From Candidatus Iainarchaeum sp. (GTDB lineage Archaea; B1Sed10-29; WALL01), in the NCBI GenBank assembly GCA_023129115.1, contig JAGMCR010000002.1, positions 1-64,000 of the forward strand: a stretch of 64,000 nucleotides of DNA, written 5' to 3'. Position numbers and translations under genes: made by a program. Below the pieces are notes generated by a model that did not search any database, had not been told where the DNA came from, and was given only the letters and a program-made list of their open reading frames with translations. Position 1 is the first letter of the stretch. Each line of letters opens with the position of its first letter. Shown piece by piece: positions 8,968 to 44,625 of the stretch.

Positions 8968-9840
8968 TCAGTATTTTTCAGGCCCGGTTGCTTTGAAACA
9001 CCTGCCTGATGCACGTCGCCAGTTAGGCATATCACCCTTGTGCCCCCCAGTTTTTTTGAACCAGTAACTGACTCCAACATCGGAGTTCTTGAGTGATGCC
9101 TCTCCAAGATATTTGAAACCCATTTTTTTGCTCCACAGGCGAAGCGATTTTTCACTGAACAAACAAGTGTGGAAAGGGATTCTGAAAAAATGATGGTTGT
9201 GTCCATATTTAAAAGTTGTTGGAAAGCTGTGAGCCATTAACCCATTCTTTTTCAGTGACTTGTTGAAGAACTGCCACGCCTGGCGTATGCCCTGTATGTG
9301 CTCAATTGCATCTACAGACGATATGCCATCAAATTTTTCCGTAAATGGCTCTCTTGGATTGTAACGAAAAAATATTTTGTCATCATACGGATAACCCTCC
9401 CGTATTTCACAAGCGTATGCTTCCGTACCCTCTTTCCTTAGTTCGTAAGCCACAGAAAAATTGTTTCCACAGGAAAAGTCCAGATAAGCCCCCCCACGCC
9501 CAAGCTTTTCAATGAGCTCGTATTGAAGCCTTTTTTCCGATTCTTTTCTTGGTGTGGCCTCTGTGTTTTGCCCGTAACAGTAGGTGTAGATCTTACCCAT
9601 TTGTAGAATATCTTCAGGAAAGATTTTTGAATAAACGTGCCCGCAGTTCTCGCACAAATACTTATCGTGTGCAGGCAATCTCTTGAGTGGTGTCTTGAAC
9701 GGGGGGTAATGCAATACTCTGGCTTCAACTGATTCACAAACCGGGCAGGCCATCAAAACTTTCTTCAGTACAAGAGAGTTGTACCTGCCTAGGCCAACGA
9801 TGTCCCTGTAGAGCGCCTTGGCACTATTTTTAACCTTCAT
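8968..9840 (-). CDS. SAM-dependent methyltransferase with N-terminal zinc-ribbon
   Basis: The product is 290 residues. An N-terminal CxxC...CxxC pair (C32, C35, C63, C66) forms a likely zinc-binding domain. A class I methyltransferase core follows, with a degenerate glycine motif (YLDFSCGNNFSVAYEL, about 119-134), an acidic SSVDAIEHI segment and a typical C-terminal half. This layout is known from sugar or natural-product C/O-methyltransferases. Its place among glycosyltransferases suggests modification of a nucleotide sugar or glycan. It starts at ATG, 8 bases downstream of a GT4 gene in the same operon. The substrate is unknown. Confidence 0.82.
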   Translation of the reverse strand: MKVKNSAKALYRDIVGLGRYNSLVLKKVLMACPVCESVEARVLHYPPFKTPLKRLPAHDKYLCENCGHVYSKIFPEDILQMGKIYTYCYGQNTEATPRKESEKRLQYELIEKLGRGGAYLDFSCGNNFSVAYELRKEGTEAYACEIREGYPYDDKIFFRYNPREPFTEKFDGISSVDAIEHIQGIRQAWQFFNKSLKKNGLMAHSFPTTFKYGHNHHFFRIPFHTCLFSEKSLRLWSKKMGFKYLGEASLKNSDVGVSYWFKKTGGHKGDMPNWRRASGRCFKATGPEKY

Positions 9841-9848
9841 TCCATCAC

Positions 9849-24726: not shown

Positions 24727-24746
24727 GGGGGGTGCGCCGTGGGGGC
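24727..24746 (+). repeat. Left attachment repeat (attL) of the tRNA-Gly island
   Basis: AGGGGGGTGCGCCGTGGGGG is identical over 20 bases to 27208-27227, which covers the last 13 bases of tRNA-Gly(CCC) plus 7 flanking bases. A copied tRNA 3' end 2.5 kb away is the standard mark of site-specific integration into a tRNA gene. Confidence 0.85.
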
Positions 24747-26932: not shown

Positions 26933-27041
26933 CTTTGCCGACTGGGCTTTTCTTTCGGGAAAGAAAAGCCTAGTGCGCTCGTGGAAAACAGCTGAAACTC
27001 AGCTGGCACGTTAGGTTTGGGGGCACAAGGCCCCCAGAGAC
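26933..27041 (-). repeat. Structured repeat element, copy 1
   Basis: This element has three hairpins. The first is at 26945-26970 (11-base perfect stem with AAAGAAAA arm), the second at 26989-27005 (CAGCTGA/TCAGCTG, loop AAC) and the third at 27018-27036 (TGGGGGC/GCCCCCA, loop ACAAG). The conserved linkers are CTAGTGCGCTCGTGG and GGCACGTTAGG. Copy 2 follows at 27065-27183 and a partial copy lies at 40002-40080. Stem sequences differ between copies while pairing is kept. It may be a small RNA or a folded recombination site. Confidence 0.6.
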
Positions 27042-27064
27042 AAGTTGTATTGTTCAAATAGTTT

Positions 27065-27207: not shown

Positions 27208-27227
27208 AGGGGGGTGCGCCGTGGGGG
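27208..27227 (+). repeat. Right attachment repeat (attR) within tRNA-Gly 3' end
   Basis: This is the 20-base partner of 24727-24746. It covers the acceptor 3' strand, discriminator and T-stem of tRNA-Gly plus 7 bases outside. The tRNA is left intact, as in other tRNA-targeted integrations. Confidence 0.85.
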
Positions 27228-27287
27228 ATTTGAACCCCCGTTATTGGCTTGGGAAGCCAAGGTCCTGCCAGGCTAGACTAACGGCGC
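27215..27287 (-). tRNA. tRNA-Gly (anticodon CCC)
   Basis: This 73-nt tRNA has acceptor GCGCCGT paired with ACGGCGC, discriminator A, and D-stem GTCT/GGAC (one T-G pair). The anticodon stem TTGGC/GCCAA has loop TTCCCAA (anticodon CCC), the variable loop is TAAC, and T-stem GGGGG/CCCCC has loop TTCAAAT. CCA is not encoded. A T-run terminator (CCTTTTT) follows directly on the minus strand. No intron is present. Confidence 0.93.
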
Positions 27288-27505
27288 ACTGCGAGCGAAG
27301 CGAGCTTTTTACCCACTTTTACTGGGGGGCCGCTTCCCAGGGTATGACGTACATCCCGCCGGATGTTCGTCTGGGCGGGGGGCTGTGCCCCCCGGGACGC
27401 TGCTGGGCTAACGGCGCGTGGGGGTTATTGGGAGCGAAGTGGTTTAAAATTGTTTTGAGGGGGCAAAGCGAAAACTCTTTAAACCCTTATTGCGTTTAGT
27501 TTTGC
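27288..27505. other. Intergenic stretch with GC-rich hairpin
   Basis: No gene is supported here. It has GGGGGGC-TGT-GCCCCCC near 27376-27392 and a short echo of the tRNA-Gly 5' side (CTAACGGCGC near 27409-27418), perhaps a relic of rearrangement at the tRNA. A TATA-like CTTTAAACC at about 27478 serves the next gene. Confidence 0.5.
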
Positions 27506-35065: not shown

Positions 35066-36181
35066 ATGCTTAATAAGGCGCCCGTGGGTAACAATGGCTT
35101 GATGAAGAGCAACTTCAAGATATTCAACGTCATGGGCATAGACATTGAGCTCCACATATCGTTCATCCTGTTCGTGCTGCTCTTCCTGATTCTTGACGTG
35201 AGCTTCCTCGTGATTTTATTGGTGCTCTTCGCCTCAATCACGCTCCACGAGCTCTCCCACTCCATAATCGGCAAATTGAACGGCATCAACGTCAAGAAAA
35301 TCGTGCTCCTGCCAATCGGCGGCATGGCCGCGATGGACGAGGTGCAAATCAAGCCGTATTCCGAGTTCAAGATGGCGATTGCAGGCCCCCTGTTCAACTT
35401 TTTATTGTGCACCTTGATTGCGCTGGCCACCCAGCTCTTCGGCCTTCCGTTCCTGCTGGGGTGGGCGGACTGGAACGCGGCGGTGGGCGGCGCCATCACT
35501 GTCCCGCTCGCGACCACCCTGTGGTCGAGCACGTTCTGGCTGAACTGGCTGCTGGGCACTTTCAACCTGTTCGTGCCCGCTATTCCCCTGGACGGCGGCC
35601 GCGTCTTCCGCTCCGCACTGGCGATGGTGACGGACTACGTGAACGCGACCAGAATCGCGACCACGGTCTCGACCGTAATCACTTTTTTCCTGTTCATCTA
35701 CGCCTTGTTCACGTACAACATACTCTTGTTGGTCATCTCTATCTTCGTCTACCTTGGCGCGGTCTCGGAATTAGAATACGCCTTGTCCAACAAATTATTG
35801 GCGCACTTCCCACTGAAGCGCATCGTGCGCGCGAACTATTTAGTCCTGAAGCCAGCCACCAAATTGGACAAGGCGATTGAGGAAATGATTAAGTCGCGGT
35901 CGCTGGTGGTGTTCACCACAATCGGCAAGCACATGGAACTGGTGAGCCTCTACGACATCCGGCACGTCCCGAAGTCGAAGTGGAAGAACACGAGCCTAAA
36001 GGAAATCGCGAACAGGGTGCGCGCCGCGGAAGTCACGGACTCGGTGACCGCAGTAATGCACTCAATGATGCGCAACGGGCTCGAGGCAATGCCCGTAATC
36101 AGCGAAGAAGAACTCGCGGGAGTCGTCTTCCGCGACGACATTAACCGAGTTTTCGAGATACTGAAAGTGAGTAATCCTTGA
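35066..36181 (+). CDS. Site-2 protease family (M50) with CBS domains
   Basis: The 371-residue membrane protein has HELSH (H61, E62, H65) in the first helix block and FVPAIPLDGGRVF with D176 as third zinc ligand. About six hydrophobic helices precede a soluble C-terminal part from near residue 240 (KLDKAIEEMIKSRSLVVFTT ... AMPVISEEELAGVVFRDD) that reads as a pair of CBS domains. Such enzymes cut membrane-bound regulators within the bilayer. ATG at 35066 fits the TATA box. Confidence 0.9.
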   Translation: MLNKAPVGNNGLMKSNFKIFNVMGIDIELHISFILFVLLFLILDVSFLVILLVLFASITLHELSHSIIGKLNGINVKKIVLLPIGGMAAMDEVQIKPYSEFKMAIAGPLFNFLLCTLIALATQLFGLPFLLGWADWNAAVGGAITVPLATTLWSSTFWLNWLLGTFNLFVPAIPLDGGRVFRSALAMVTDYVNATRIATTVSTVITFFLFIYALFTYNILLLVISIFVYLGAVSELEYALSNKLLAHFPLKRIVRANYLVLKPATKLDKAIEEMIKSRSLVVFTTIGKHMELVSLYDIRHVPKSKWKNTSLKEIANRVRAAEVTDSVTAVMHSMMRNGLEAMPVISEEELAGVVFRDDINRVFEILKVSNP

Positions 36182-36228
36182 GCAATGAGTCCAAGTGCTT
36201 CTTGATTAATGGCGCGTAGTGCTTTCCC

Positions 36229-36477
36229 TCACTGTCCGTCTTTGTGGTACAAGTCAAGGAAGACTATCGTGTCCTGGCTTTTGAGGCATAGGCAGGACAG
36301 CTTGAAGGGCGCAATGTAAACTTCCCCCGTGTTTTTTCGTGAGAAGCGCATTGGCTTTCCAACACTGGGGTCCCGCACAATCCTGGCGACCTGTTTTTTC
36401 ACCTTTTCTTTCAGGGCGTTGTCCCTTATCTTCTTGGCCCGTTTTTCAAAAACAGAGTCAGACCCAACAGTCACCAT
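36229..36477 (-). CDS. RelE/ParE-superfamily toxin, copy 1
   Basis: An 82-residue basic protein: KRAKKIRDNALKEKVKKQVAR, then IVRDPSVGKPMRFSRKNTGE, VYIAPFKLSCLCLKSQDTIV and FLDLYHKDGQ. This order of helices and strands is RelE-like, with the C-terminal LYHKD in place of a canonical catalytic end. It overlaps the AbrB-type antitoxin by 7 bases. It differs from copy 2 (38804-39052) at six residues: E/K, S/T, V/I, K/E, G/R, K/R. Confidence 0.82.
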   Translation of the reverse strand: MVTVGSDSVFEKRAKKIRDNALKEKVKKQVARIVRDPSVGKPMRFSRKNTGEVYIAPFKLSCLCLKSQDTIVFLDLYHKDGQ

Positions 36478-36740
36478 TTTTCAAGCTCTTTCAAAAACTC
36501 TTCGCCACTCACTTTTTTGAAGCGGCCTTTTTCGTAGCGCTTGAGCGCTTCTTCCGTGCGCTCGGCGAAGCGCAGGTCTTCTCCTATGTTCTCGCCGAAG
36601 TCGCTAACGCTCTTGAGAATGAACTTGTCCCCGCTCCTGATGACGACGAACTTCTCCCCCTCCCTGAAGCCCGCGCGCATGTCGCTGGGGATAACAATCT
36701 GGCCCTTGGAACTCATCTGGGTAACGCTAATATCAGGCAT
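36471..36740 (-). CDS. AbrB/MazE-type antitoxin, copy 1
   Basis: An 89-residue protein with the N-terminal swapped-hairpin DNA-binding fold (VTQMSSKGQIVIPSDMRAGF, EGEKFVVIRSGDKFIL) and a C-terminal toxin-binding helix (TEEALKRYEKGRFKKVSGEE). It is the first gene of the pair. It differs from copy 2 at two residues (Q/R and E/G). Confidence 0.87.
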   Translation of the reverse strand: MPDISVTQMSSKGQIVIPSDMRAGFREGEKFVVIRSGDKFILKSVSDFGENIGEDLRFAERTEEALKRYEKGRFKKVSGEEFLKELEKW

Positions 36741-36772
36741 GAGGCAAGATATGTCTTACCTCATATACAAAG

Positions 36773-36802
36773 TTTTCTTTTCCAAAGAAAAACTGGAGCG
36801 CT
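36773..36802 (-). repeat. Hairpin plus AGCGCT core upstream of TA copy 1
   Basis: TTTTCTTT (36773-36780) and AAAGAAAA (36784-36791) form a hairpin like the first hairpin of the elements at 27 kb. It is followed by GGAGCGCT (36795-36802), a partial copy of the tRNA-Ser att core. It overlaps the end of the 135-residue gene. Confidence 0.5.
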
Positions 36803-37209
36803 TATTCTTGCTGTGACGGGTCTTTGAGCTGCTCCAGCACGCTCCGGACTTGCGGCAGTCCCTGCAGATTGTGCAACCTGTCCACGAAATCCTGTTTGAG
36901 TATGCCACCGCCCTCACCAATTAATGTTACCAAGTAATTCAAACAGTACTTAGAACTAGTCTTCAAGAGCTTGTACACTTTATCCTTGTTTTCTGTATAG
37001 TCCTGATCGCCCAGATAGTTTTCCTCGTAATGCTTGCTGCTTGCAGTGGAGATCTCATCCATCAAGTCGCATAGCTCCTGCGCTTCTTTAAGGTCGATAT
37101 GCGTCCTGATTTCCTTGCTGTGGATGTAAACCGGCTTCGTGAATTTCGCGAAATTAGTAATGTCTTTCCTCAGCTGCTCTTCGTTGCCATGTCTTATTTT
37201 GAGACCCAT
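36802..37209 (-). CDS. Hypothetical helical protein (135 aa)
   Basis: A soluble, mostly helical protein with acidic patches (LKEAQELCDLMDEISTAS, NYLGDQDYTENKDKVYKLL). No motif is recognised. The ATG is 27 bases from a TATA-like GTTTATTC on the minus strand. It lies alone between two att-like cores, suggesting it is cassette cargo. Its role could be defence or toxin-antitoxin related, but nothing in the sequence proves it. Confidence 0.65.
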   Translation of the reverse strand: MGLKIRHGNEEQLRKDITNFAKFTKPVYIHSKEIRTHIDLKEAQELCDLMDEISTASSKHYEENYLGDQDYTENKDKVYKLLKTSSKYCLNYLVTLIGEGGGILKQDFVDRLHNLQGLPQVRSVLEQLKDPSQQE

Positions 37210-37246
37210 ACATGGCTTTAGGGGCTGTGAGAATAAACAAGGATTG

Positions 37247-37260
37247 GAGCGCTAGGGGCA
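37247..37260 (+). repeat. tRNA-Ser att-like core, internal copy
   Basis: GAGCGCTAGGGGCA is identical to the 3' end region of tRNA-Ser(UGA) at 40153-40165 and flanks. It stands 2.9 kb from the tRNA, between the 135-residue gene and the AbiE pair. Confidence 0.75.
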
Positions 37261-37436
37261 AACCAGTATACGGAGTTGACTTTTCGACTTTGAAGTCGAT
37301 TTACCAGCCTATTTCATAAGGGGGCAAGGCAGGGGCGGGTAGCACCAAACAGGCCCATGATTGGTTTTTCGGCCAATTGATTGGTTTTTGGCGTTATAGG
37401 CAACCTTTATATATTATACATGTTATGTATAATGCC
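37261..37436 (+). promoter_or_regulatory. AbiE operon promoter with palindromic operator
   Basis: TTATACAT-GTT-ATGTATAA (37414-37432) is an inverted repeat overlapping the TATA-like TTTATATATT and ending 4 bases before the ATG. It would suit autorepression by the AbiEi-type product. Upstream are a GACTTTGAAGTC hairpin near 37284 and a direct repeat of ATTGGTTTTT. No gene is supported here. Confidence 0.6.
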
Positions 37437-38066
37437 ATGATTAAGCTGACCGAGAAGAGGCAGGGCATAGTACTGTGGATTCTGGAGAACAGGGGCAAGC
37501 AGTGGTCTATCCACGAGCTTTGCACGAAGTTTGGCGGCCTGACGTACCCGAGCACTTATGACTTTGTCAACCAGCTTTTGGGGGCAGGGTATTTGATGAA
37601 GACCGAGGCCCGGGAGTTCACGGCAATGAATGCCCACGCACTGGTGCAGCAGCTGGCATACACGTTTCCATTAAAGGCCAAGGAGAAAAAGTGCTTCTTT
37701 GTGGTGGGGGGCATGGCAGACAAGATAAAGGTGCTCAAGAGCATCAAATTGGATTATTCGCTTACTGCGTTTGCTGCTGGCGAAGTGCTCCACCCCTATG
37801 TAAAGACAGAAAAAGTCCACGCCTATGCCCGAAAAAAAGACATTGGAAAATGGGGGGAGGAACTGGCCAGGAAAGGGGCCAGGCCTGCTTTTGAGGACGA
37901 GGCGAACCTGTTCCTGCTTCCAGTCCAAGAAGATTACTACTTCAACTTGTCCAGGAACATTCACGGCTTCAGGATAGCGCCGCTGGGCCTCGTTCTGGCT
38001 GACCTGGTTTCGATTGGGGGCCTTGGGGAAGAGCAGGCAAAGATGATTGAAGGGGCAGTGGAATGA
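37437..38066 (+). CDS. AbiEi-like antitoxin with winged helix
   Basis: The 209-residue protein starts MIKLTEKRQGIVLWILENRG with an N-terminal winged-helix (WSIHELCTKFGG, YDFVNQLLGAGYLM). A C-terminal domain follows (YSLTAFAAGEVLHPYVK, AYARKKDIGKWGEEL, EANLFLLPVQED) as in AbiEi/type IV antitoxins. The start ATG lies just after a palindromic operator. It overlaps the nucleotidyltransferase gene by 4 bases (ATGA). AbiEi represses its own operon and counters AbiEii. Confidence 0.78.
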   Translation: MIKLTEKRQGIVLWILENRGKQWSIHELCTKFGGLTYPSTYDFVNQLLGAGYLMKTEAREFTAMNAHALVQQLAYTFPLKAKEKKCFFVVGGMADKIKVLKSIKLDYSLTAFAAGEVLHPYVKTEKVHAYARKKDIGKWGEELARKGARPAFEDEANLFLLPVQEDYYFNLSRNIHGFRIAPLGLVLADLVSIGGLGEEQAKMIEGAVE

Positions 38067-38776
38067 TCGACGGGATTATGGCGGAGTACTCAAACAAGTG
38101 CCTGGCAGAGCTGTTCAGGCACGTGAAGCAAAAAAGCAGTATTGGCCTCATGGGCGGCTGGGCAGTCCACTACCTCTTGAAAGAAAAGGGGGTTGAGCAC
38201 ATTGGCTCTAGGGACATCGACATTTTCTTTGACCCGGAGAAGGTATCGTTTAAGAAAATCCGGGAACTGATTGAGGGGGAGGGGTTCAGGCCGCACTCGA
38301 CTTTCAGGTGGGCAAAGTTTGTCCACAGGCTTACTGGCAAGGAGATGAATAGTGCAGAGGCAACCAAAGTCCCGCAGTATGACTTGTGTGTTGTTTATGT
38401 TGATGTTGCAGCCCCACGGCACGTCGACAAAAGAGTGATGGACTTGCCTTTGTTGGAAAAAGTGTTTGAAGGGGAATCAAAATGGATTAAAGTGAATGGC
38501 ACCAAAGTCCTGGTCCCAAGCGAGAAAATAATGGCTGAGATGAAGCTGGATTCCACTGGAGAGCGGGGGGACCGGTTCAAGAAGTCCAAGGACATTGCTG
38601 ACCTGTTCATGCTGCTTTACAGCGAGCCCGGGCTGCTGGAGGCCGCCGACAAAAAATTGAGGAGAAAATTCAAGTTGGACTTAGGCGATTTTGGGACTTC
38701 TGGCAATCTAGCTGACGCTGCCAACATGTTGGGGGTGCCAGTAAGCGTAATACTGCGCGTCTTGGACAGGCTTTAG
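38063..38776 (+). CDS. AbiEii-like nucleotidyltransferase toxin
   Basis: The 237-residue protein has the nucleotidyltransferase signature GLMGGWAVHYLL followed by SRDIDIFFDPEK (two metal-binding aspartates) and a later KVLVPSEKIMAEMKLD. This matches AbiEii/MenT-type toxins, which transfer nucleotides to tRNA or other targets. The last ~70 residues are helical. It is translationally coupled to the AbiEi-like gene. The plus-strand orientation is opposite to the duplicated toxin-antitoxin pairs on both sides. Confidence 0.8.
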   Translation: MIDGIMAEYSNKCLAELFRHVKQKSSIGLMGGWAVHYLLKEKGVEHIGSRDIDIFFDPEKVSFKKIRELIEGEGFRPHSTFRWAKFVHRLTGKEMNSAEATKVPQYDLCVVYVDVAAPRHVDKRVMDLPLLEKVFEGESKWIKVNGTKVLVPSEKIMAEMKLDSTGERGDRFKKSKDIADLFMLLYSEPGLLEAADKKLRRKFKLDLGDFGTSGNLADAANMLGVPVSVILRVLDRL

Positions 38777-38803
38777 TTGGAACGGCTTGGTCAGCATTTT
38801 CCC

Positions 38804-39052
38804 TCACTGTCCGTCTTTGTGGTACAAGTCAAGGAAGACTATCGTGTCCTGGCTTTTGAGGCATAGGCAGGACAGCCTGAAGGGCGCAATGTAAACTTCT
38901 CTCGTGTTTTTTCGTGAGAAGCGCATTGGCTCCCCGATTGTGGGGTCCCGCACAATCCTGGCGACCTGTTTTTTCACCTTTTCTTTCAGGGCGTTGTCCC
39001 TTATCTTCTTGGCCCGTTTTTTAAAAACAGAGTCAGACCCAACAGTCACCAT
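38804..39052 (-). CDS. RelE/ParE-superfamily toxin, copy 2
   Basis: An 82-residue near-identical partner of the gene at 36229-36477, with the same helix-strand order ending LYHKDGQ. Differences are mostly conservative or charge changes (RDPTIGEPMRF, NTREVYIAPFRL). It overlaps its antitoxin by 7 bases. Both copies look intact. Confidence 0.82.
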   Translation of the reverse strand: MVTVGSDSVFKKRAKKIRDNALKEKVKKQVARIVRDPTIGEPMRFSRKNTREVYIAPFRLSCLCLKSQDTIVFLDLYHKDGQ

Positions 39053-39315
39053 TTTTCAAGCTCTTTCAAAAACTCTCCGCCACTCACTTTTTTGAAGCGG
39101 CCTTTTTCGTAGCGCTTGAGCGCTTCTTCCGTGCGCTCGGCGAAGCGCAGGTCTTCTCCTATGTTCTCGCCGAAGTCGCTAACGCTCTTGAGAATGAACT
39201 TGTCCCCGCTCCTGATGACGACGAACTTCTCCCCCTCCCTGAAGCCCGCGCGCATGTCGCTGGGGATAACAATCTGGCCCTTCGAACTCATTCGGGTAAC
39301 GCTAATATCAGGCAT
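39046..39315 (-). CDS. AbrB/MazE-type antitoxin, copy 2
   Basis: An 89-residue near-identical partner of 36471-36740 with the swapped-hairpin fold VTRMSSKGQIVIPSDM and the C-terminal toxin-binding helix. Cross-talk between the two antitoxins and toxins is likely given their identity. Confidence 0.87.
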   Translation of the reverse strand: MPDISVTRMSSKGQIVIPSDMRAGFREGEKFVVIRSGDKFILKSVSDFGENIGEDLRFAERTEEALKRYEKGRFKKVSGGEFLKELEKW

Positions 39316-39365
39316 GAGGCAAGATATGTCTTACCTCGTATACAAAGTTTTCTTTTCCAAAGAAG

Positions 39366-39385
39366 GGGTCGAGCGCTGGAGGCAA
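39366..39385 (+). repeat. tRNA-Ser att-like core, degenerate copy
   Basis: GGGTCGAGCGCTGGAGGCAA matches the tRNA-Ser 3' boundary at 40147-40166 at 17 or 18 of 20 positions, including the seven bases outside the tRNA. It marks the upstream edge of TA copy 2. Confidence 0.7.
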
Positions 39386-39416
39386 GCGTTATTAAAACGG
39401 TTTAGACCGCCGGTTG

Positions 39417-39689
39417 TCAAAAAAATTGGTTGTACCACTTTTCGTAGTCTTTGTGTTTTCCAACGAAGTAGAATCTTACTGTTTTGTTTAGCTCGAATAT
39501 TCTGTAAACAATTCTGTGTTGTCCTGTTTCGTTCACGAAGAATCTGGCTCCTTTTTTGAGGTGCCTTTTGCGCGGGTGTTCAAGAATATTTTTGATTTTC
39601 TTGGCAATCCGTTCTTTTGTTTGATTATCTAGTTTTCGGAAGTATTTCGGCCAGTCTTGATCGAATCTTTCTGTGTACATGACACTCAT
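39417..39689 (-). CDS. RelE-family toxin (YafQ/RelE-like)
   Basis: A 90-residue protein: MYTERFDQDWPKYFRKLD, IKNILEHPRKRHLKKGARF, NETGQHRIVYRIFELNKTV and RFYFVGKHKDYEKWY. It has the RelE fold order and a C-terminal HKDYEKWY typical of the group. The first codon overlaps the antitoxin stop (4 bases). Very AT-rich, it is the third toxin-antitoxin pair in this array and unrelated in sequence to the duplicated pair. Confidence 0.85.
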   Translation of the reverse strand: MSVMYTERFDQDWPKYFRKLDNQTKERIAKKIKNILEHPRKRHLKKGARFFVNETGQHRIVYRIFELNKTVRFYFVGKHKDYEKWYNQFF

Positions 39690-39928
39690 TTCAAGTGTTT
39701 TACATATGGCCCAAGCGCTTCTTCAGCAGTCAATAGTTTTCTTTTTCCTTGTTTTATTTTTTTATCGATTCTATCGAGTTTTCTGGCGACTAGTCCTTCT
39801 TCATTGGCATGGCTTTCCCCGAAATTTATTATAGCTAATCTAATTGCTTCTGACAATGTGTTTGCATAGCCTTCCTCAACCATATCCTCCAAAATTTGCT
39901 TTGTCCTTCCTCTTAAAATAACATTCAT
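39686..39928 (-). CDS. RHH-like antitoxin partner of RelE
   Basis: An 80-residue protein starting MNVILRGRTKQILEDMVEEG, with NTLSEAIRLAIINFGES as the second helix and a basic then acidic C-terminal (KLLTAEEALGPYVKHLK). ATG at 39928 is preferred over an upstream in-frame codon because promoter repeats lie between. It likely represses its own promoter through the paired repeats at 39959-39995. Confidence 0.8.
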   Translation of the reverse strand: MNVILRGRTKQILEDMVEEGYANTLSEAIRLAIINFGESHANEEGLVARKLDRIDKKIKQGKRKLLTAEEALGPYVKHLK

Positions 39929-39958
39929 TACAGGCCACCAACCATTTGATGTGTGTAT

Positions 39959-39995
39959 TATGTATCGTTTATGGTTTAAATATGTATCGTTTATG
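39959..39995 (-). promoter_or_regulatory. Promoter with two direct-repeat operators for the RelE pair
   Basis: TATGTATCGTTTATG occurs at 39959-39973 and 39981-39995, 22 bases apart (two helical turns), on either side of GTTTAAA. On the minus strand this gives a TATA box sandwiched between two identical operator half-sites. Confidence 0.7.
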
Positions 39996-40001
39996 AATAA
40001 A

Positions 40002-40080
40002 AGCGCTAGGGGCAGTGTCATAACGCCTGAAACTCAGGCGGCACGTTAGACGAGGGAGGCGCAAGGCCTCCCGGCGGCAT
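40002..40080 (-). repeat. Att-like core plus structured repeat, copy 3 (partial)
   Basis: AGCGCTAGGGGCAG (40002-40015) copies the tRNA-Ser 3' end. It is followed by hairpin CGCCTGA/TCAGGCG (40024-40040, loop AAC), the linker GGCACGTTAG, and hairpin GGGAGGC/GCCTCCC (40054-40072, loop GCAAG). Hairpin order, loops and linker match copies 1 and 2, while stem bases differ with pairing preserved. The AAAGAAAA hairpin is missing. Confidence 0.6.
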
Positions 40081-40146
40081 TTTCCATCGACGCTTTTCTA
40101 CCGAGCAGCCGCTGAGCAGGCAAGCGAAGTGGCTGTAACAGAAAAA
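40081..40146. other. Spacer between repeat copy 3 and tRNA-Ser
   Basis: No gene is seen here. It ends with GTGGCTGTAACAGAAAAAGG, almost identical to the sequence left of tRNA-Gly at 27191-27210 (two differences). The two tRNA-flanking zones are thus related beyond the hairpins. Confidence 0.5.
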
Positions 40147-40166
40147 GGGTCGAGCGCTAGGGGCAG
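40147..40166 (+). repeat. tRNA-Ser 3' end att core (parental copy)
   Basis: GGGTCGAGCGCTAGGGGCAG spans the acceptor 3' strand, discriminator and part of the T-stem of tRNA-Ser(UGA), plus 8 outside bases. Copies or partial copies lie at 40002, 39366, 37247 and 36795, all downstream of the tRNA in its reading direction. Confidence 0.75.
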
Positions 40167-40239
40167 GATTTGAACCTGCACGGGCCGAAGCCCACCGGCT
40201 CTCAAGGCCGGCGCGTTAACCGGATTCCGCCACCCTAGC
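40155..40239 (-). tRNA. tRNA-Ser (anticodon TGA)
   Basis: This 85-nt tRNA has acceptor GCTAGGG/CCCTAGC and discriminator G. The anticodon stem CCGGC/GCCGG has loop CTTGAGA (anticodon TGA), the long variable arm is TGGGCTTCGGCCCG, and T-stem GCAGG/CCTGC has loop TTCAAAT. The long variable arm and G73 support serine rather than leucine. CCA is not encoded. Confidence 0.92.
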
Positions 40240-40247
40240 AGCGTCTT

Positions 40248-40337
40248 GGGGGGAGCGCAGCTCCCCCCGCTACCCTTTCGGGAATCGCAATTCCCTTATT
40301 TCTGGCGATTTCCGAAATAAGGCGATACGAAATCGCC
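40248..40337 (-). ncRNA. Hairpin-rich segment between tRNA-Val and tRNA-Ser
   Basis: Four potential stems lie here: 40248-40268 (GGGGGGAGC/GCTCCCCCC), 40280-40295 (GGGAAT/ATTCCC), 40295-40321 (CTTATTTC/GAAATAAG) and 40321-40337 (GGCGAT/ATCGCC). A competing stem pairs GGCGATTT (40304-40311) with AAATCGCC (40330-40337), excluding the last two. It could be a processed spacer of a tRNA transcript, a switch-like RNA or simply a palindromic repeat. It resembles no RNA family I know. Confidence 0.4.
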
Positions 40338-43869: not shown

Positions 43870-44625
43870 CTACACGGTTCTGGCCGGGACAGCAAAAAAA
43901 CGCAGTGCGTTCTCAAAGATGTAATCCGTCGCATCGACTTCTTTCAAGGTCGACACCAAAGCAACAATATCACGAACGAAGAACGGCTCGTTGCGCTTGC
44001 CCCTCATTGGACAATTATAGGGGCTGTCTGTCTCGACTAAGGTATATTCTAGAGGAAGCAGCTTAATAAGCCTTTTGTCCTTGCTCCCCGTGCACAGGCT
44101 TATATAAAAGCCGTGGTCCAGGCACTCCTGCGCCTCTTCCCCGCTGCCAGAAAAGTGGTGCATCATCACCCTGTCAGGGCGCTTTTTGCCAATAATTTTC
44201 AATAAGTCTGGCATTGCGTCGCGGCAGTGGACCACCAGCGGCTTCTTCAGCTCCTCTGCCAGCGCGATGAACTTCTTGAACACTTCTTTCTGCCTTTCCC
44301 TGCCCTTGCCGGCGGGGGTCCAGTGGTAGTCCAGCCCGACCTCGCCGATTGCGGTGATGTCGTCGCGGTGCTCTTTAATCAACTCAATAAAGTTGTCGAC
44401 GTCTTTGTCGCCCATCTTTGCCGCGAGCGGCGGCGCGAGCCCGAGCGAGGCCTTGATGAACGCGGGGTGCTCGTGGTGCATCTCGAGCGTGGCAGTGTTT
44501 CCCGAGAAATCGACTCCCGAATTAACAACGAAGTCCACTGCCTTCTTGTTCCGCTCGATGACTTCCTCGCGGTCCTTCTCGAACCGCTTGTCCTCGAGGT
44601 GGCAGTGGCAGTCCACTAGTGGCAT
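43870..44625 (-). CDS. tatD: TatD family metal-dependent hydrolase
   Basis: A 251-residue TIM-barrel protein with the expected ligands: DCHCHLED at the N terminus, AIGEVGLDYHW (glutamate), VVHCRDAM (histidine), MHHFSGSG (histidine) and VETDSPYNC (aspartate). TatD proteins act as 3'-5' exonucleases or deacylase-like hydrolases. The ATG at 44625 is 26 bases from TTAAATAG on the minus strand; an extra Met codon upstream at 44628 is possible. Confidence 0.9.
   Translation of the reverse strand: MPLVDCHCHLEDKRFEKDREEVIERNKKAVDFVVNSGVDFSGNTATLEMHHEHPAFIKASLGLAPPLAAKMGDKDVDNFIELIKEHRDDITAIGEVGLDYHWTPAGKGRERQKEVFKKFIALAEELKKPLVVHCRDAMPDLLKIIGKKRPDRVMMHHFSGSGEEAQECLDHGFYISLCTGSKDKRLIKLLPLEYTLVETDSPYNCPMRGKRNEPFFVRDIVALVSTLKEVDATDYIFENALRFFAVPARTV

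Follow-up and report, generated by a model that had tools for sequence, protein, structure and literature searches.

Prophages of the phage 21/e14 type, which integrate into icd, bring their own version of the host gene's 3' end, and the differences between the two ends are mostly synonymous. Tycheposons are larger, bacterial integrative elements that are linked to tRNA genes and possess tyrosine recombinases and partial tRNA copies. That name is given in PMC10872708. Archaeal elements have been found to integrate at the 3' ends of tRNA and protein genes via tyrosine recombinases, with documented re-use of a site forming arrays and with short attachment (att) repeats, whose median is 17 bp in Thaumarchaeota (PMC6563490, PMC8371274). 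Here we describe an array of small cassettes at the 3' end of the tRNA-Ser(UGA) gene in Candidatus Iainarchaeum sp., a small archaeon of the DPANN group. The window is the whole stretch of 64,000 nucleotides that was analysed, positions 1 to 64,000 of contig JAGMCR010000002.1 (C12:1-64000 in our numbering) from assembly GCA_023129115.1, and all positions without a contig prefix refer to it. The genome (G000) comprises 1.25 Mb in 19 contigs and is 88.6% complete. Every genome in which the pattern appeared, this one included, is a draft metagenome-assembled genome (MAG), and G001 is the sole relative of the same genus in our set; cassette variation was compared between species and genera rather than between strains of one species.

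Serial cassettes behind tRNA-Ser(UGA)

The tRNA-Ser(UGA) gene anchoring the array lies on the minus strand at 40154-40239 (ARAGORN; Rfam RF00005, 62 bits). The repeated core is its 3' end, TGCCCCTAGCGCT, which on the plus strand reads AGCGCTAGGGGCA, the antisense of the last 13 nucleotides around the tRNA 3' end, with the tRNA's own occurrence at 40153-40165. An initial annotation of this DNA had reported recurrence of the core on the downstream side of the tRNA, and this was confirmed: exact plus-strand copies lie at 40002-40014, 151 bp from the tRNA's own, and at 37248-37260, together with a degenerate copy at 39372-39384 that has 2 mismatches and retains the flank GGGTCGAGCGCT, with GGGTCG conserved, and a 7-nucleotide remnant, GAGCGCT, at 36796-36802. 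The remnant was counted as a core because its position relative to a duplicated toxin-antitoxin (TA) unit equals that of 39371. Given that the motif was not enriched in the window when 3 mismatches were allowed (23 found versus 20.5 expected), degenerate copies alone prove nothing and the weight rests on exact ones. Profiling the 13-nucleotide core over the 1.25-Mb genome revealed 8 places with at most 1 mismatch versus 0 for the reversed pattern. Five of them are exact, namely the three in the window, tRNA-Ser(CGA), and the downstream copy of tRNA-Ser(CGA) at +86.

Each copy directly precedes a gene, again as annotated, with the start codon 39-74 nucleotides past the core (40002 to the ATG at 39928, 39372 to 39315, 37248 to 37209, and 36796 to 36740). 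By contrast with these gene-bearing cassettes, the insert closest to the tRNA (40016-40152) is gene-free, consisting of a palindromic module 'G' (ACCCTTTTTCTGTTAC...GAAAAGCGTCGATGG; 40080-40152, minus strand) immediately after the tRNA and then a two-hairpin module 'E' (40025-40079, minus strand; 70.5 bits, a copy used in model building) that forms its right-hand border. The array probably represents mobile cassettes without an integrase of their own, serially integrated in a site-specific manner at the tRNA-Ser(UGA) 3' end by a recombinase acting in trans.

Gene-end copies and their border module across the genome

An own-end copy was defined as a recurrence of the tRNA's own last 13 nucleotides that lies within 6 kb and has no more than 1 mismatch; tRNAs were collected by running ARAGORN and Rfam on the stretches surrounding known tRNAs. 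For the 46 tRNAs of G000, 19 own-end copies were located downstream on the same strand, versus 1 downstream on the opposite strand and 1 and 2 upstream, while a control with the ends of other tRNAs gave 1.24 expected downstream on the same strand. Downstream same-strand copies also prevailed over the other placements in G001 (12 versus 0/0/0), G003 (3 versus 0/0/0) and G004 (3 versus 1/0/0). Copy distances in G000 fall into a short class of 77-175 bp (plus one of 308) and a long class of 2.4-4.1 kb. Within the window, an exact copy of the tRNA-Gly(CCC) end (24730-24742, minus strand) lies 2482 bp downstream of that tRNA (27212-27288), and the window's second E (26990-27042, minus strand) lies between them; behind this E comes an end copy that contains an insertion. 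Behind tRNA-Thr(CGU) at C12:74872, about ten more end copies extend across 18 kb, some of them with 1-2 mismatches. The left borders in this array (C12:74000-92000) are of three kinds, E, AGGCTCTAYAGCCGTACGASYTGTTCC and CTTGACSTGGYCAAGC, and an AAA_14/DUF4143 ATPase is also encoded there.

As in tRNA-targeted integrative elements, a direct repeat of the tRNA 3' end is found at both borders. The same tRNA carries different short inserts in the two species of the genus, G000 and G001, and this holds for many tRNAs; at tRNA-Ser(UGA) of G001, no end copy was detected within 1.4 kb and the neighbouring genes differ from those of G000. Thus, recurrence at many tRNAs and variation between relatives support the annotation's proposal of serial insertion that restores the tRNA end, and the pattern looks like repeated site-specific insertion that spares the host gene.

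In the E module, which is about 55 bp long, hairpin A is variable and is joined to hairpin B (RGCTGAGTTTCAGCY) by a linker that hardly changes (usually YCTAACGTGCC). Searches with a covariance model gave 54 matches in G000, 7 in G001 and 0 in 59 other archaeal genomes; the model was built from 27 of these copies and the recall of E rests on this one model, with weaker matches being less certain because the model has few base pairs and 27 training copies. In the commonest E type, hairpin A is paired in 97.5% of cells; double changes number 22 versus 6.0 in shuffles, and the pairing collapses in slid control versions, while hairpin B possesses compensatory changes at three pairs. In 24 cases, versus about 0.4 expected, a tRNA on the same strand lies no more than 400 bp upstream of E. 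A significant direct repeat of the right flank, 13-57 nucleotides in length, lies up to 350 bp leftward of 24 of the 54 E copies, compared with 6 in the right-hand control. Rfam returned no E match on the array (only tRNAs and one sub-threshold match), and a search of other taxa with a degenerate E pattern recovered the genus only, plus chance-level single matches in three bacteria and one viral contig.

Other folded modules share these positions. A hairpin, GAAACTTTTGTAAAAAGTTTC, is found immediately before tRNA-end copies in two genera (G003 and G004) as a counterpart of E, and modules like G flank other tRNA-end copies, after or before them, in G000 and its relatives. At tRNA-Ser(UGA), a palindromic module 'F' (AGCGTCTTGGGGGG...CCCCCC; 40240-40276, plus strand) in inverse orientation abuts the tRNA 5' end, and dispersed palindromes F (AGCGTCCTNGGGGGG...) and G (ACCCTTTTTCTGTTAC...GAAAAGCGTTGATGG) abut many tRNA ends in either orientation. 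In G001, tRNA-Gln(CUG) on C46 (L203) is followed by two tandem 94-bp units that each terminate in a tRNA-end copy, and E with a copy of the tRNA 5' end sits on its other side.

Copied ends are not restricted to tRNAs. Downstream of the 23S rRNA 3' end on C7, AACGACTATGCACTGCC recurs, sometimes altered, at a spacing of about 0.8-1.5 kb. Genes lie in the intervals, and each of five junctions has E or a remnant of it; serial gene cassettes at a single entry site were thus seen at tRNA-Ser(UGA), tRNA-Thr(CGU) and 23S rRNA. The cargo of the 23S array (C7:60000-74155, L116, 67250-73100) includes a Vsr/DUF559-like endonuclease. In addition, E lies between duplicated protein-gene ends at C5:40453, C9:44361 and 44474 (stretch 44361-44533), C13:112804, C19:13072, C19:64320 and C1:39045, and in G001 it lies between a duplicated gene start on C34 (L166 6288-6450) as well as at the tRNA-Gln 5' end. 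E and a gene end form tandem 110-113-bp units at two loci. Where the left copy contains the gene end, the duplication extends to about the stop codon. Because E also borders protein-gene ends, the ideas that it is a pseudogene resembling a tRNA or one half of a split tRNA were dropped; a transcription terminator was also considered and leaves the duplicated gene ends unexplained.

Differences between the duplicated ends are mainly synonymous, with counts of 5/5 (P = 3e-4), 6/6 (P = 4e-5) and, at C13, 4/7; the P values assume independent and uniform substitutions. For the G001 duplicate on C34, 6/8 differences are synonymous, in addition to an ATG/GTG difference at the start codon. Such a coding pattern would be unexpected in a noncoding leftover, suggesting that the two copies most likely diverged while coding, in separate lineages, before they met. 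Incoming DNA with a diverged gene end therefore fits these differences better than an ordinary target-site duplication does.

Candidate recombinase and cargo

No integrase was found among the genes of the window's array. However, the initial annotation's view of a stack without any visible integrase does not hold for the genome, because the same contig encodes one XerA-like tyrosine recombinase within the tRNA-Thr(CGU) array. This gene (C12:78360-79526, 389 amino acids, with a C-terminal zinc ribbon) is the sole Phage_integrase-family (PF00589) member found in G000. Its best NCBIfam match is archaeal XerA, below cut-off, and XerA fits better than the integron-integrase model TIGR02249 (46.8 bits against a cut-off of 265). 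The gene starts about 75 bp past a long copy of the tRNA-Thr end, and an inverted tRNA-Thr end overlaps the stretch that precedes its start codon, approximate in G000 and exact at the G004 homologue (85% identical). In G001, a recombinase fragment with 42% identity starts about 45 bp past tRNA-Ser(GCU). Plasmid and virus matches are distant, at most about 41% identity, and IMG/VR held no viral relatives by the method used. Its place beside tRNA-end copies makes this tyrosine recombinase the best enzyme candidate, and it likely serves the cassettes in trans.

Several cassettes of the window's array carry TA pairs as cargo. Moving away from the tRNA, the gene-free insert is followed by a ParE cassette (39417-39928), in which a type II TA layout is predicted: a ParE/RelE-superfamily toxin (39417-39689, minus strand; PF05016, 35.7 bits, passing the cut-off) stands beside a small upstream gene for a presumed antitoxin of no confident family (39686-39928, minus strand). 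The next cassette carries TA copy 2, with an AbrB/MazE-like antitoxin (39046-39315, minus strand; PF04014, just below cut-off) and a ParE-like toxin (38804-39052, minus strand; PF15781, below cut-off) 93% identical to that of copy 1. The same cassette contains a divergent pair at 37437-38776 that the initial annotation had omitted, consisting of an AbiEi-like protein (37437-38066, plus strand; PF09952, E = 0.0086) and an AbiEii-like nucleotidyltransferase (38063-38776, plus strand; PF08843, E = 0.0047), both of them weak matches below cut-off. Further from the tRNA are a gene of 135 residues with no confident family (36802-37209, minus strand) and TA copy 1 (36229-36740), bordered by the core remnant, whose AbrB/MazE-like antitoxin (36471-36740, minus strand) and ParE-like toxin (36229-36477, minus strand) are just below cut-off; an M50 peptidase gene (35066-36181) adjoins the far side with its 3' end. 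The TA unit is duplicated over 567 bp (36223-36789 and 38798-39364), and both copies stop 7 bp short of a core, which makes the limit of the duplication coincide with that of the cassette.

Of 60 other genomes that were searched, 9 contain homologues of the AbrB/ParE-like pair. In G002, which belongs to another genus, tRNA-Ser(GCU) is followed at +167 by an exact copy of its end, then by a lipoprotein-like gene and, at +641, by a degenerate copy; the pair comes after these, 0.8-1.3 kb downstream of the tRNA. In G005 it sits directly behind an apparent tRNA-Ser(GCU) with two insertions, beside HicBA-like and AbiE-like pairs. In G008 it is placed between two copies of TGGTCTC[A/G]C[A/G]GCACCCCCAGC, a 21-bp direct repeat with 19/21 identical positions that ends in the tRNA-Ser-like CACCCCCAGC (0/1000 shuffles score as high). 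In G029 it is bracketed by two attC-like sites (L260 9218-9301 and 9949-10029), a setting that resembles an archaeal integron cassette. Judged from these sequence contexts, at tRNA-Ser ends and attC-like sites, the AbrB/ParE-like pair is a mobile one that repeatedly associates with tRNA-Ser ends. As to the interrupted tRNA of G005 (L258, about 9608-9845, minus strand), its insertions are in the anticodon loop and the T-loop, the latter where array copies start in other tRNAs, and it was undetected by ARAGORN (default settings) and Rfam; the HicBA-like pair nearby (L258 8421-9012) is bounded by perfect 23-bp direct repeats.

Explanations and known systems

We envisage that an incoming circle composed of gene end, cargo and border module would recombine near the start of the duplicated segment, upon which the gene would gain the incoming end and the old end would be displaced to the far border. 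Each incoming cassette would carry its own tRNA-end copy, keeping the tRNA intact, and repeated events at the gene-proximal site would build the array; we infer the circular intermediates. The various loci would then belong to one multi-locus system of this archaeal family, inserting at tRNA ends, after 23S rRNA and at some protein-gene ends, with a structured module bordering the copied end (E in this genus and other hairpins in relatives). E would be part of the recombination site, as a recombinase arm site or a folded single-strand site, or it may be a separate element sharing the junction. A more far-reaching version, to which we lend only tentative belief, regards E and its counterparts as portable folded sites with which one recombinase delivers cassettes, each with a matching gene end, to many tRNA, rRNA and protein-gene ends, amounting to non-integron cassette capture across a DPANN family.

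Several points weigh against integration by a recombinase in trans. The att cores differ at every tRNA, so one recombinase must serve, or have replaced, many targets, and the presence of E beside unrelated gene ends is not simply explained by a single sequence-specific recombinase. In the window's array, E precedes only the tRNA-proximal copy. Finally, these fragmented MAGs yielded neither excision products nor circular forms, and no empty site at strain level.

The alternative that comes nearest is that the inserts are transposons, resembling miniature inverted-repeat transposable elements (MITEs) or casposons, with end copies that are target-site duplications surviving only where the gene end was restored. 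The direct repeats flanking E would be expected of such elements, the modules E, F and G are found in either orientation while facing the copy with the same side, and archaeal casposons insert tandemly at 3' gene ends (PMC6563490). However, a target-site duplication begins identical, whereas the copies here diverged mainly synonymously while coding; their length is variable, running in protein genes to about the stop codon rather than being fixed, and the genome, at its level of completeness, has no Cas1 (PF01867). We therefore consider transposition unlikely. An integron or a relative of one, with E as a diverged attC and tRNA or rRNA ends as attI-like entry points, would account for the cassette spacing and the E junctions behind 23S rRNA, for a hairpin A preserved by compensatory changes and for the attC-like sites around the homologous pair in G029. 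RYYYAAC-type boxes are present in 15/30 E copies, but the opposite box is not consistently GTTRRRY and E does not conform to attC. Combined with a recombinase far below the integron-integrase cut-off and with cores that are gene ends, different at every locus, this makes an integron improbable.

It is very improbable that nothing mobile is involved and that hairpin recombination or replication slippage, together with segmental duplication in MAGs, generated the pattern. The 567-bp duplication and the tandem units of E and gene end are what such processes would yield, but the same E sequence beside unrelated genes, inserts that differ between species, TA homologues recurring at tRNA-Ser ends of other genera, and recovery from several independent assemblies are not.

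If cassette integration at gene ends is correct, it would represent gene capture that uses gene ends as docking sites and leaves the host gene unharmed, and it would contribute to genome plasticity in a group with little-known mobile elements. The DPANN genome is tiny, yet many of its RNA genes host stacked small cassettes, several with TA pairs. Whether one recombinase and a folded module can serve many targets is a testable question, and the gene-free mini-inserts give a glimpse of the minimum that an integrative element requires.

In the literature searched, we found no genome in which a large share of the tRNAs carries hairpin-only inserts of 65-160 bp, and no single structured module that borders the ends of unrelated RNA and protein genes. 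To our knowledge, hairpin-only inserts and a module shared across different targets have not been described for tycheposons. Elements of the phage 21/e14 type differ from the cassettes here in being whole prophages with a dedicated integrase and one target. The integron and casposon readings each fail because a defining feature is missing, IntI and attC boxes in the former and Cas1 in the latter. Archaeal integrons and clusters of attC sites lacking integron-integrases (CALINs; PMC9668308) share with this array serial single-gene cassettes, TA cargo, folded inter-cassette sites and a recombinase located elsewhere, so the label 'integron-like' stands as an analogy; however, no IntI lies above cut-off, the cores copy the neighbouring gene end rather than forming attC, and the attC box pattern fails in half of the E copies, and the system is not a canonical integron. 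Casposons (PMC6563490, PMC6614799) likewise use tRNA and protein-gene 3' ends, possibly in tandem and with short direct repeats, whereas the duplications here are variable in length and synonymously diverged. Like archaeal integrated elements, the cassettes target a tRNA or protein gene in its 3' part and the host gene is restored; unlike them, they are mostly shorter than 2 kb, or gene-free and about 65-160 bp, lack an integrase, and occupy a large fraction of the tRNA genes at once as well as a 23S site, with a shared structured border module.

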